Origin: Gammaproteobacteria bacterium
GTDB taxonomy: Bacteria > Pseudomonadota > Gammaproteobacteria > S012-40
DNA: 64,000 nucleotides
Reading direction: 5' to 3'
Assembly: GCA_029881255.1 (NCBI GenBank)
Contig: JAOUMY010000001.1
Location: 806,001 to 870,000 of the forward strand
The notes below the pieces were generated by a model. The model saw only the letters and a program-made list of their open reading frames with translations, was not told where the DNA came from and ran no database searches. The position numbers and the translations under genes are program-made. Shown here in pieces: positions 4,166 through 11,356 of this stretch (position 1 is its first letter; each line of letters begins with the position of its first letter).

Positions 4166-4196
4166 GGGTGAGTATTCAACGGTGTCAAAATACTGG

Positions 4197-4222
4197 ACGG
4201 GTTTTCTAAACCCGTTTTTTTT
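4197..4222 (+). terminator. Rho-independent terminator of purH
   Basis: Perfect 8-bp stem ACGGGTTT / AAACCCGT (4197-4204, 4208-4215) with a three-base loop and eight consecutive T (4215-4222). It sits between purH and the HIT gene. Confidence 0.9.
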
Positions 4223-4238: not shown

Positions 4239-4640
4239 ATGGGTAAGTTTTCTTTGCATCCGAGACTAACGCAGGACACGATACACCTGCGTGACGTTGA
4301 ATTCGCGCAGCTTCTACTTATGAATAATTCTCTTTACCACTGGTTTATTATCGTTCCAACGACGGAAATCACAGAATGGTATCAATTGTCAGAACAGCAA
4401 CAGTTTTCACTAAATAAACTGATTAATCTTTTATCGCTAGCGATCAAGGAGAGGCTGAATGCGGATAAGTTGAATATTGCTCTGATTGGGAATGTTGTGG
4501 AACAAATGCACATACATGTCATTGGAAGGAATCGCAGTGACGTAGCCTGGCCAAATGTTGTATGGGGTAGAGAGGAACGGCAGAGCTATGAACCGCCCCA
4601 AATCGAAAAAATCCGACACATGGTCAACAAATTATTTTGA
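4239..4640 (+). CDS. HIT-family protein (QxHxH variant)
   Basis: 133-residue histidine-triad-fold protein, a family of nucleotide hydrolases and transferases. The nucleotide-binding signature at residues 89-95 reads Q-M-H-I-H-V-I, so the first triad histidine is Gln while the second and third (H91, H93) are kept. That variant is common in one bacterial HIT subgroup, so activity is possible but the substrate cannot be named. I start at the ATG at 4239, after AGGAAA; a longer open frame to 4020 runs through purH and the terminator and is not credible. Its TGA overlaps the TTG start of the next gene, implying coupled translation. Confidence 0.82.
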   Translation: MGKFSLHPRLTQDTIHLRDVEFAQLLLMNNSLYHWFIIVPTTEITEWYQLSEQQQFSLNKLINLLSLAIKERLNADKLNIALIGNVVEQMHIHVIGRNRSDVAWPNVVWGREERQSYEPPQIEKIRHMVNKLF

Positions 4641-5353
4641 GAATCTATCAACTATTTCAAAAGGGAATACCCGAATACCTTGCCCGGCATTATTGGTGGG
4701 CCTACTTGTGGCGTCCGGCTATATGGTTCTTTGATCACCAGTTTATAATCAATTTGATCTTGTTTGGGCAGTATAAGCGACTTCTTAATGCTGCATTGGA
4801 CATGGTGCCAGCAACTGACGGCGAGACGTTACAATTGACCTGTGCATATGGGCATTTGACACCTAAGTTGCTCGAAAAGCTTGATAAAAACAAACTTTAT
4901 ATTATCGATGTTGCGCAGCAACAGTTACTTCAAGCCAGAAAGAAGGTCAACGTATTACGATTGATTGCAAGTAGAATGAACGCCGAGAAGCTTGCTTTTA
5001 AAAATCAGTCTTTCGATACGGTGATTGTGTTTTTTCTTTTGCATGAATTACCTGAAGACGTGAGAGAAAAGGTTTTATCAGAATTGCTCAGGGTAGTAAA
5101 AAACAACGGGATATTGGTTTTTGTAGACTATTCCCATGCCCCGGTGCAGCATATTTTGTATCGTTTGTGGATTTTTCGAACAATTATTACAAAGTTGGAA
5201 CCGTTTCTGGCTTCACTTTGGAAAGTGAATATTGATGAAAGATTGGCGCTTATCGGACGAGTTCAGAAAAAAGAATTAACTTTGGAAAAGTCTGTTACTG
5301 TATTCAATGGATTTTATTTTGTAAAGCGTTTTAGTGTTAAGCAATTGAGTTAA
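4637..5353 (+). CDS. rquA: RquA-like rhodoquinone biosynthesis methyltransferase homologue
   Basis: 238-residue class I methyltransferase-like protein. Seen: HYWWAYLWRPAIWFFD (residues 18-33), LQLTCAYGHLTPKL (65-78) where normal enzymes have a glycine-rich SAM motif, FFLLHELP (132-139), VFVDY (161-165) and LEPFLASLW (187-195). From family knowledge these blocks are the RquA signature, including the altered motif I; RquA converts ubiquinone to rhodoquinone using SAM as amino donor. The start is a TTG overlapping the TGA of the HIT gene; no strong ribosome site is visible. The gene looks AT-rich beside its neighbours, and rquA is known to spread laterally. It could be an RquA-related paralogue of other function. 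Confidence 0.65.
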   Translation: MRIYQLFQKGIPEYLARHYWWAYLWRPAIWFFDHQFIINLILFGQYKRLLNAALDMVPATDGETLQLTCAYGHLTPKLLEKLDKNKLYIIDVAQQQLLQARKKVNVLRLIASRMNAEKLAFKNQSFDTVIVFFLLHELPEDVREKVLSELLRVVKNNGILVFVDYSHAPVQHILYRLWIFRTIITKLEPFLASLWKVNIDERLALIGRVQKKELTLEKSVTVFNGFYFVKRFSVKQLS

Positions 5354-8524: not shown

Positions 8525-9445
8525 TTAGCCTTCGATAAAATCGAATAGGGTTACTGTGTAATCCACCAGTGGCGTTGAGCCCAACTTGACTGGAATATCG
8601 GTGTGTCCGCCACCGCTTACTCGAACAGCGTGCTTGTTTACACCGTCTACACCAGGATGGTTTTTGTAAACAATCTCGCCGTGAGTATGAATGCTAAGAA
8701 AGTCATCCGCCGTACCGTGTATCCACAGTAGAGGCACGTTGGTAAGTTTTTTTATTTCCTCGGCGTTGTCGATTTTTAAATTCGTCACCATACTATCTGG
8801 TATGGCCAGCAGGGTGCTGTCCTGAACCATCACTTCCGCAGATGCGAAAGGCGCCTCAAGAATGATTTTTGATGCCACGAGATTACCTCGTGGATTAGCG
8901 GTTAGTTCGACTGCGGGAGCCGTTCCCATGCTAAAGCCATAAATAATGAAATCGCTCGACGCTAATCCTTCGCTTTCCAGCCAGTTGATGGCAGCCGCCG
9001 TATCCACGTAAAGACCTTCTTCACTAGGTTCGCCACCAGTCATGCCGAAACCTCGATAATCAAAGGCGAGCACACCATAGCGATTTTTGTCGCCCACATT
9101 GGCGAGTAGTTTTATCCTCGGCCAATAAAAATCCATGTGATCACGGTTGCCATGGCAGTACAGAATTACCTTGTAGCCTGGTGTCCCAATCTGCGTGCGG
9201 TCTCCGAGGAAATAAGAATAGACTTTCTGCTCTGATGTGCCGTCGTTAGATATGATCTCGTCTTGTAATGGAATGATAAGATTACTTGGTATGTTGTAAC
9301 TACTATCAACTGTAATATCAGTTTTACCTTGGTAATTGTCCAGAGAGTACTGTGTTAACGTGGAGTTATTGTACAAATTTGCATCTAGTCGGGCACACGC
9401 TGTCAGCGCAATAACAGAAGCAAAAAAAATCGATTTCATCTGCAT
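8525..9445 (-). CDS. alpha/beta hydrolase lipoprotein
   Basis: 306-residue predicted lipoprotein (ALTAC, Cys17) with an alpha/beta-hydrolase fold. Seen: oxyanion region YCHGN (96-100), FDYRGFGMTGG (128-138), nucleophile elbow GFSMG with Ser172, candidate acid D247 or D248 in GTADDF, and His281 in GGGHTD. That is a full catalytic triad, so an esterase or peptidase-like activity in the envelope is likely; substrate unknown. Its ATG shares one base with the stop of the preceding lipoprotein gene (TAATG), so the two are coupled. Confidence 0.88.
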   Translation of the reverse strand: MQMKSIFFASVIALTACARLDANLYNNSTLTQYSLDNYQGKTDITVDSSYNIPSNLIIPLQDEIISNDGTSEQKVYSYFLGDRTQIGTPGYKVILYCHGNRDHMDFYWPRIKLLANVGDKNRYGVLAFDYRGFGMTGGEPSEEGLYVDTAAAINWLESEGLASSDFIIYGFSMGTAPAVELTANPRGNLVASKIILEAPFASAEVMVQDSTLLAIPDSMVTNLKIDNAEEIKKLTNVPLLWIHGTADDFLSIHTHGEIVYKNHPGVDGVNKHAVRVSGGGHTDIPVKLGSTPLVDYTVTLFDFIEG

Positions 9446-10104
9446 TAGAATCGATACCCCATACTTAAATAAATGCCAAGGGTGCCATAGTCCAATGGAC
9501 CAAGATATTCGACGGCTATATTCTTGTTACTACTAAATGGAGCGAGATATTTGGCTTCAGCTGTAAGCCGCAGTCTACCCGGCAACCAGCTATAGCCCGC
9601 ATGTAGAGCGGGTACCCAATGAGTTGGCTGATCTTCACCATGAGCTCTGGCTTGGCGTAACTCAAACCAGTTGGCCATACCCACGTAGAAATAATCGGGG
9701 CCTTCGAAAGCCAGCCAATACAAATTCATATCAATTGAAGGGTATGCGGCATAGGCGAATTCCCATCGATCAACCATTAGGTTAAGTGCGGGGGCAAAAC
9801 TTACTCCCGGCAACATCCCGTCGGGCGGTAAAATCTCCTTTAAGACGCCAAGATCGATTTGCGCCACGCCGTATGCCGCAGCCGTGGTGTGCCAACCACC
9901 ATACAGTGTAAGGTCGGGTTTGAGGCCATAGCTTGCAGAAAGAGAGCTCAAGGGCATGGGGATGAAATTATCCCCAAAGCGAAAGATCGGCCCACCCACA
10001 TCTAGGCCCGCCTCCAATTGACCGGTGTGCAGCGGCTTCACTACGCGACTGTTCGTGCACGCAATAGAGCTGAGTAATAACACCAATACGACAATAGTTC
10101 TCAT
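9445..10104 (-). CDS. predicted outer-membrane lipoprotein, barrel-like
   Basis: Not a family I can name. 219 residues from the ATG at 10104, with a short hydrophobic signal ending SSIAC (Cys16; the -3 Ser makes the lipobox weak). The rest is rich in aromatic alternating strands (SASYGLKPDLTLYGGWHTT, LRLTAEAKYLAPF, LGIYLSMGYRF) and ends in Phe, as outer-membrane barrels often do. Coupled by TAATG to the hydrolase gene downstream, so both may act on the same envelope process. A longer frame to 10155 would overlap the next gene. Confidence 0.7.
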   Translation of the reverse strand: MRTIVVLVLLLSSIACTNSRVVKPLHTGQLEAGLDVGGPIFRFGDNFIPMPLSSLSASYGLKPDLTLYGGWHTTAAAYGVAQIDLGVLKEILPPDGMLPGVSFAPALNLMVDRWEFAYAAYPSIDMNLYWLAFEGPDYFYVGMANWFELRQARAHGEDQPTHWVPALHAGYSWLPGRLRLTAEAKYLAPFSSNKNIAVEYLGPLDYGTLGIYLSMGYRF

Positions 10105-10120
10105 AGGATTGTTATCAAAC

Positions 10121-10408
10121 CTAGTTTTCGGCCATCCACTTTTCCAGAATCTCAATCAACTTCTTTGCCTGATCCTTGCTAGAGATATTGAATTTCGATT
10201 TCTGTTGGTAGGCACCGTTGCGTTTCTGATAGCGACGTATACTGTATTTATCCGGCCCGTATTCTTGTTTGGTACGGTCCCAATCCTGGTAGCGGAAAAC
10301 CACGGTTGACCAAGCGCCTTTAGTCAAAACTTCCTTATCCAGCTCCTTAACGGTCACCTGGCCATCTTCAGTGTATTCAATAGTTAATTCATCTACGGTA
10401 GAAGCCAT
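10121..10408 (-). CDS. conserved small protein of unknown function
   Basis: 95-residue soluble, highly charged protein, started at the ATG at 10408 after AAAGGAAA. It has a compact look: strand-like N-terminus (ELTIEYTEDGQVTVKELDK), central VVFRYQDWDR and YSIRRYQKRNG, and a C-terminal helix (DQAKKLIEILEKWM). I recall similar small proteins in other Proteobacteria without known function. It lies 16 bases before the barrel-like lipoprotein gene and may be co-transcribed with it. Confidence 0.7.
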   Translation of the reverse strand: MASTVDELTIEYTEDGQVTVKELDKEVLTKGAWSTVVFRYQDWDRTKQEYGPDKYSIRRYQKRNGAYQQKSKFNISSKDQAKKLIEILEKWMAEN

Positions 10409-10485
10409 TTTTTTTCCTTTAGCGTGTGAGGCCAAAGCTTAACCATAATGAATGCTTTGGGGCAAGTTTTGTGGGCATATTTGAT

Positions 10486-11271
10486 CTAATGCAAATTAGA
10501 TAGGGTGATGATGATTTCAATGATTATGAGTATGGTTATATACCATTCCACCCGATGGGTGCTGCGATGACGCATGAGTTCGAGCAAAGTTTCGGCGGTG
10601 CGCGTGATCAGGTTCAGTTTCTGTTCGAGGGCGGTATGCCGTTCCTGCAATTCGTATTCGTCTTCCAGGCGCAAATAATTGCGTTCGAGATCGGGTCTGT
10701 CCCATAGCAGCTCGGGTTTTTCATTAACTTCTACACGACCAAGCATTTTGTGCTCGACAGCGAGGCTGGCGCCAACTTGTTTTAGTAGGGCTTTGCTGTT
10801 AACACCGCTACGCCCTTTTTGTTGCAGATTGGTGGCGAGAGGCTCCACGCGATTGATGACGTCGGCCACGAGTCGCTCGTAGTATGCCAGGGCAACACTC
10901 TTCGCAAGTATCTCAGCCAAGATCTGCATTTGCTCCAGATCGAAACTTTTCAGGTTGAGAGCGTCCTGATACATGCCCTCTGCACGATTTGGGTCTATGG
11001 TAACGAGCTGTTGTTCGGCTTCCGGTTCGTCAAGGTTAGCACGAGAAAAAGCGCCAATTTTTTCCAACAGGTCTTTTTCCTCGTCAATATCGAGATTAAA
11101 AAAGACAACGGAACCGTAGCGGAAAAGGATAACATAACCATGATTGTTAACCTGTATAGTTAAGGGATAGTCCGCGACAACCTCTCCCAGTTCACTGCTG
11201 CGTATGCGTAGCCGATCTGCGATATGGTGGGCTCTGACAATGAGTGTTTCGTCGTTGTTAAACTGAAGCAT
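10486..11271 (-). CDS. RMD1/YagE family membrane protein (DUF155)
   Basis: About 261 residues, homologous to yeast Rmd1-type proteins found in organelles and bacteria; bacterial function is unknown. Seen: FRYGSVVFFN (residues ~50-60), a helical region with EILAKSVALAYYERLV, and the family's C-terminal ending RVEWYITILIIIEIIITL, which is a single tail-anchor membrane segment at the extreme C-terminus. I start at the ATG at 11271 (MLQFNND); an in-frame start at 11301 is possible. Confidence 0.85.
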   Translation of the reverse strand: MLQFNNDETLIVRAHHIADRLRIRSSELGEVVADYPLTIQVNNHGYVILFRYGSVVFFNLDIDEEKDLLEKIGAFSRANLDEPEAEQQLVTIDPNRAEGMYQDALNLKSFDLEQMQILAEILAKSVALAYYERLVADVINRVEPLATNLQQKGRSGVNSKALLKQVGASLAVEHKMLGRVEVNEKPELLWDRPDLERNYLRLEDEYELQERHTALEQKLNLITRTAETLLELMRHRSTHRVEWYITILIIIEIIITLSNLH

Positions 11272-11356
11272 AACGGATTCCTTTTCCCAATTTGATTGCA
11301 TAAATGCTGCCGTTTAGACAGTTGCATATAGATAGGTTCTTGAGATAAGGGATAAT

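Follow-up and report, generated by a model that had tools for sequence, protein, structure and literature searches.

A probable sister branch of the rhodoquinone synthase RquA carried mostly by sulfur- and iron-oxidizing bacteria

RquA uses SAM and Mn2+ to make rhodoquinone from ubiquinone, and rhodoquinone capacity is predicted from genomes through the presence of rquA. According to the accessible portion of PMC9814641, R. rubrum RquA loses activity when Asp118 and Asp143 are both replaced by Ala, this double mutant being the only one of the aspartate mutants for which a result is reported there. The O2-independent ubiquinone pathway, marked by UbiU/UbiV, is a usual but not a defining companion of rhodoquinone (73 of 84 cases in the accessible portion of PMC11707229).

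Within a window of 64,000 nucleotides, the whole stretch of gammaproteobacterial DNA analysed here, an intact 238-codon open reading frame with a TTG start had been described in the initial annotation as an RquA-like methyltransferase homologue with possible rhodoquinone capacity, a divergent paralogue being the fallback reading. We lean towards the view that this gene represents a distinct subfamily, sister to RquA, whose SAM-using product would modify ubiquinone or a late ubiquinone precursor and yield a product other than that of RquA. The features discussed are collected in Table 1.

Table 1. Features of the window, with the basis of each assignment
Feature	Position	Strand	Basis
Terminator-like stem and T run, after purH and ahead of the HIT gene	4195..4217	+	pattern match only
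HIT-domain protein gene	4239..4640	+	PF01230, 37.1 bits; stop overlaps start of the RquA-sister gene
RquA-sister gene, 238 aa, predicted class I SAM-binding fold	4637..5353	+	ORF; NF038261, 191.5 bits; tree; structure model, pLDDT 94.9
Altered SAM motif I LQLTCAYG, residues 65-72	4829..4852	+	common to RquA, unlike UbiE
Asp91, equivalent of R. rubrum RquA Asp118	4907..4909	+	Asp in 170/170 rows
Asn115, equivalent of R. rubrum RquA Asp143	4979..4981	+	key-column counts
Leu-His-Glu, residues 135-137	5039..5047	+	His-Glu common to RquA, absent from UbiE
VDYSHA, residues 163-168, against VDYHRP of RquA	5123..5140	+	alignment columns
ORF	9445-10155	-	no Pfam match at E <= 0.001
ORF	10121-10435	-	no Pfam match at E <= 0.001
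DUF155 (RMND1/Sif2-Sif3/Mrx10) protein	10486-11301	-	

Two score groups under the RquA model

The window protein matches the NCBIfam RquA model NF038261 at E = 1.6e-56 and, with 191.5 bits, passes its equivalog cut-off of 175 bits. It reaches 43.9 bits on the NCBIfam UbiE/MenG model, far under the cut-off of 158.35, and 56.5 bits on Pfam Methyltransf_25. Scanning 84,980 species of Bacteria and Archaea, each represented by a single genome, yielded 431 confirmed relatives, and the best 80 of these, which were kept, are 43-50% identical to the window protein; together with the model E value, this identity upholds the annotation of the gene as an RquA homologue. Passing the equivalog cut-off also speaks for a divergent but genuine rhodoquinone synthase, an enzyme that would transfer an amino group from SAM to ubiquinone and supply a low-potential quinone for life at low oxygen. 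Given the evidence on both sides set out below, we hold this alternative to be unlikely, if still credible.

The proteins gathered by the model fall into two groups. In 398 Pseudomonadota genomes, 79 matches were found in 78 genomes: 44 reach 279 bits or higher, one has 225, 31 fall within 155-191, and the other three are fragments. The window's own class, sampled with 369 genomes, gave 37 matches at E <= 1e-20, with 10 at 282-318 bits, one at 225 and 26 at 143-191. The window protein stands at the top of the lower set, whose members are named here 'window-type', and window-type proteins outnumber RquA in the sampled Gammaproteobacteria (26 versus 10 in the 369 genomes). The cut-off fails to separate the two groups, as it runs through the middle of the window-type matches (16 of 31 above and 15 below in the 398 genomes), so that databases will label about half of this group RquA arbitrarily.

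Both types were never found together in one genome among the 369 and 398 genomes. Of the 13 genomes in the window's own family 8 carry the lower type, as do 31 of 78 from the Zetaproteobacteria class, and the upper type is absent from both sets. The idea that the gene belongs to the core of iron oxidizers was ruled out by its presence in those 31 of 78 Zetaproteobacteria-class genomes (19 of the 39 good ones). One genome, G583, carries two window-type copies, on contigs C4 and C8, the sole such case in the 398-genome and Zetaproteobacteria-class sets. In the window's host the gene is single copy, the next match to the RquA model being the host UbiE, encoded elsewhere in the genome, at 42.7 bits.

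Conserved residues and tree placement

Residues were compared over 105 window-type, 40 RquA and 24 UbiE rows; six pairs of the window-type rows have identical ends, being duplicates or near-copies, and thinning to 82, 33 and 20 rows gave the same picture. All sequence blocks quoted in the initial annotation are present in the window protein: YWWAYL (residues 19-24), LQLTCAYG (65-72), FFLLHE (132-137), VFVDY (161-165) and LEPFLASLW (187-195). Window-type proteins and RquA have a non-canonical SAM motif I in common, in which the D..GGTG of UbiE is replaced by Q..C.YG; Gln66, Tyr71 and Gly72 are invariant or nearly so in both groups, and the corresponding UbiE residues are Asp, Thr or Ser, and Gly. 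After strand 4, the His and Glu of Leu-His-Glu occur in 105/105 window-type and 40/40 RquA rows, whereas UbiE has Arg and Asn. The YWWAY block at the N terminus, the EPF block, Trp195, and a Trp and a Tyr near the C terminus are likewise common to the window protein and RquA, and the Asp118 equivalent is found in RquA and UbiE alike. Mean identity of the window protein is 34.6% to RquA as against 20.0% to UbiE, and by these comparisons RquA is by far its closest characterized relative. The change in motif I and the replacement of Arg-Asn by His-Glu point to a handling of SAM shared with RquA; motif I, the Asp118 equivalent, His-Glu, YWWAY and Trp195 would also fit a true rhodoquinone synthase.

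However, residues that are characteristic of RquA are missing from the window type. In the Asp143 column, whose equivalence, like that of Asp118, rests on the 25-residue spacing of the two aspartates given in the accessible portion of PMC9814641, 99 of 105 window-type rows have Asn and 39 of 40 RquA rows Asp, Asn also occurring in the remaining RquA row and in 10 of 24 UbiE rows (the other 14 having Asp). The window protein, with Asn115, retains only the first of the two aspartates of RquA. The His and the Pro of VDYHRP, each present in 40/40 RquA rows, are absent from the window protein, in which a His lies one position later than that of RquA; a His occupies the RquA position in one of 105 window-type rows. 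In the accessible parts of the literature consulted, no published role for the YHRP motif was found. The window type further differs from RquA at another Pro and at a C-terminal Gln, replaced by Arg in most members and by Phe in the window protein, in having extra residues in its C-terminal part, and in an Arg that is new relative to RquA and invariant (Arg181, 105/105). Loss of the RquA-invariant His, two Pro, Gln and Asp143, together with the new Arg181, points to a different substrate or product, and the lost residues argue against the formation of rhodoquinone.

The tree comprises 75 rows (42 window-type, 22 RquA, one intermediate and 10 UbiE) drawn from the 136 left after thinning 170 at 85% identity; its RquA rows are defined by a score of at least 279 bits and not by experiment, and include no verified sequence and none from R. 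rubrum. RquA and the intermediate row form a clade with 100/100 support and a stem of 1.37 changes per column, and the window protein lies outside it, itself on a long branch (1.24). Trees that place the window protein inside one or the other RquA subgroup are rejected (p 8.5e-5 and 2e-6), whereas its placement as sister of all RquA, a position that a divergent rhodoquinone synthase could also occupy, is not (p 0.243); nor is a single clade of all window-type rows (p 0.345). The position outside the RquA clade, an outcome that the initial annotation had itself named as refuting its proposal, agrees with the fallback reading of a divergent paralogue. Together with Asn for Asp143 and the missing His and Pro of YHRP, it leaves the rhodoquinone capacity first proposed unsupported and makes rhodoquinone a less likely product. 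One window-type row, L032, is a weak sister of RquA (85/73), which suggests that RquA may have arisen from within the window-type group.

The intermediate protein (L021 of genome G019, positions 1486-2160) scores 225 bits and keeps the YHRP His and Asp143. It joins RquA with 100/100 support, on a long branch, and comes from a genome that has a UbiU/UbiV pair.

Hosts, quinone partners and the link to ubiquinone

The host genome carries sat, aprB and aprA, with an ORF between aprB and aprA that we take to be aprM-like; these genes make the host most likely a sulfur oxidizer. It has one sdhCDAB set, an ordinary succinate dehydrogenase, whose SdhA scores 899.7 on TIGR01816 (cut-off 727.35) as against 555 on the fumarate reductase model TIGR01176 (cut-off 932.7). 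TIGR01812 retrieves one SdhA, one match resembling L-aspartate oxidase (as read from score and frame) and weak AprA matches, and the profiles used detected no dedicated fumarate reductase in the host genome. A UbiU/UbiV pair, counted where two matches lie in different open frames, is missing as well, the host having one match to PF01136 (U32 family; 295 bits, 458-aa frame). The fumarate respiration that had been linked to the gene therefore finds no counterpart among the partners searched for, which also tells against a rhodoquinone synthase. Across genomes, UbiU/UbiV pairs occur in 20 of 25 RquA genomes, 8 of 44 window-type genomes, the one intermediate genome and none of 10 controls. The difference between RquA and window type gives a Fisher p of 6e-7 on genomes but of only 0.04-0.09 when collapsed to families. 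A further window-type genome (G075), not one of the 8, has a UbiV-like match only, at a contig edge.

By their record titles, the best 80 of the 431 relatives comprise 17 from Zetaproteobacteria, 19 of Gallionellaceae type (Gallionella, Sideroxydans, Ferrigenium, Gallionellales), 6 other Nitrosomonadales, 28 Gammaproteobacteria (several hydrothermal), 7 Alphaproteobacteria and 3 others. Zetaproteobacteria and the Gallionellaceae-type groups are iron oxidizers, and the named hosts of the window type are largely iron oxidizers and vent Gammaproteobacteria. Window-type hosts often live at oxic-anoxic interfaces, and this too favours a rhodoquinone synthase. Nevertheless, since the window gene lies in a separate and uncharacterized branch that occurs mostly in sulfur- and iron-oxidizing bacteria, the 'rhodoquinone' label is probably wrong for it. 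In the accessible parts of the literature searched, including PMC8269255, PMC11707229, PMC13386864 and PMC10715153, rhodoquinone or rquA was not found as a studied finding in connection with Gallionella, Zetaproteobacteria or iron oxidation.

Pseudomonadota make ubiquinone, and 79 of the best 80 of 431 relatives have Pseudomonadota record names. The remaining one, L087 (L213, genome G756), comes from a 'Deltaproteobacteria' genome that has ubiC, ubiA, ubiD and ubiG in a row; its protein scores 165.6 bits on the RquA model and has window-type residues. That the sole relative from outside Pseudomonadota among these 80 possesses a ubiquinone locus ties the subfamily to ubiquinone. According to the accessible portion of PMC13386864, such a ubiC-A-D-G locus is typical of the Desulfobacterota class GWC2-55-46, presented there as the first case in which ubiquinone biosynthesis is evident beyond Pseudomonadota, and no rhodoquinone was obtained in E. 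coli with the 'rquA' of one GWC2-55-46 genome (stated in that source as data not shown). As a genome with the locus of that class carries a window-type gene, the gene tested in E. coli probably belongs to the window-type subfamily, the match being by locus and not by sequence. The outcome in E. coli thus weighs further against rhodoquinone as the product. Methylene-ubiquinone was considered as a product and dropped, both because the same portion of PMC13386864 describes it as a chain-modified ubiquinone and because no methanotroph appears among the record names of the best 80 of 431 relatives.

Under the reading that we favour, a sister enzyme with a class I fold like that of UbiE/Coq5 would bind, at the membrane, either ubiquinone or one of its late precursors, and its non-canonical use of SAM would match that of RquA. 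It would make a different change from RquA, or act at a different ring position or on a different precursor, and its place would be in the quinone pool of sulfur and iron oxidizers that live aerobically or microaerophilically rather than in fumarate respiration. A bolder proposal, which we offer as speculative and doubtful, is that of an unrecognized quinone-tailoring branch in which a non-methyl transfer from SAM would turn ubiquinone into an undescribed quinone, allowing sulfur and iron oxidizers to adjust the potential of their quinone pool where oxic and anoxic zones meet, with RquA perhaps derived from this branch. If the RquA model extends its label to a sister subfamily that makes another product, then rhodoquinone capacity is mapped wrongly for many sulfur and iron oxidizers. 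Should the sister make a different quinone, it would represent a second case in which SAM serves quinone chemistry without methylation, and would provide a clue to the origin of the RquA amino transfer from UbiE-like ancestors.

Predicted fold and local context

A structure model of the window protein, built from 64 sequences (the window protein and 63 of the 80 loci), has a mean pLDDT of 94.9 and a pTM of 0.91 and is predicted to adopt the class I SAM-binding fold. Its neighbours in a fold search include NodS (Z 20.7, 2.4 Å over 184 residues) and yeast Coq5 with SAM (Z 19.1, 2.5 Å over 197 residues, TM 0.67), and phospholipid and phosphoethanolamine N-methyltransferases fall in the same range (all Z 19-21). 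A profile search found no solved RquA structure as a template. As modelled, the fold is that of methyltransferases in general and cannot by itself name a substrate.

Such a likeness to many class I enzymes would suit an ordinary SAM-dependent methyltransferase acting on some other small molecule or a lipid, with no link to quinones, as would the variation of neighbouring genes between lineages. We nevertheless judge this improbable: the UbiE-like motif I is replaced by the Q..C.YG of RquA, the protein is far closer to RquA than to UbiE, and the best 80 of the 431 relatives are confined to lineages with a ubiquinone pathway.

No conserved neighbour that would name the function was found over the 80 loci (two of which, L046 and L071, have no called gene in the neighbourhood table). 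In Gallionellaceae the order is argS...SDR-[window-type gene]-gatB, SDR being assigned by Pfam and argS and gatB by eye. In vent Gammaproteobacteria the gene lies near genes for glutamate dehydrogenase, cytochrome c and 2-oxoacid:ferredoxin oxidoreductase, the last of which would sit well with a rhodoquinone synthase; its alpha subunit is within reach in 11 of 80 loci, one of them alphaproteobacterial. A recurrent vent-gammaproteobacterial locus (L051, L055, L063, L082, L097, L104, L107 and L110), incomplete in some members, contains a copper-type P-ATPase (read by eye), glutamate dehydrogenase, 2-oxoacid:ferredoxin oxidoreductase subunits and a membrane protein of about 256 aa with a CxxCH motif and no Pfam match.

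In the window, the N terminus set by the TTG start aligns with the starts of relatives, and the gene overlaps the HIT gene that lies upstream of it by four bases, at the TGA stop of the latter. A terminator-like site, identified by a pattern found 10 times in the region against 6.3 expected, stands between purH and the pair, and the two genes form a probable two-gene unit. A conserved pairing of HIT protein and methyltransferase, which the overlap and the site upstream could suggest, is hardly credible: none of 122 stretches retrieved around window-type genes, with flanks of as much as 10 kb and some places represented twice, contains a homologue of HIT, cyclophilin or PurH, and in a smaller locus set no HIT gene lies beside other window-type loci (flanks up to 1.5 kb). 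These counts refute HIT coupling as a general rule. The coupling is indeed unusual, as had been remarked, but the explanation then thought worthwhile is not required, since its absence from the related stretches means that local gene order suffices.

Further along the window, the complementary strand carries two ORFs without a Pfam match and a gene for a DUF155 protein (Table 1), here in a bacterium although the best-known members of its family are mitochondrial and yeast proteins.
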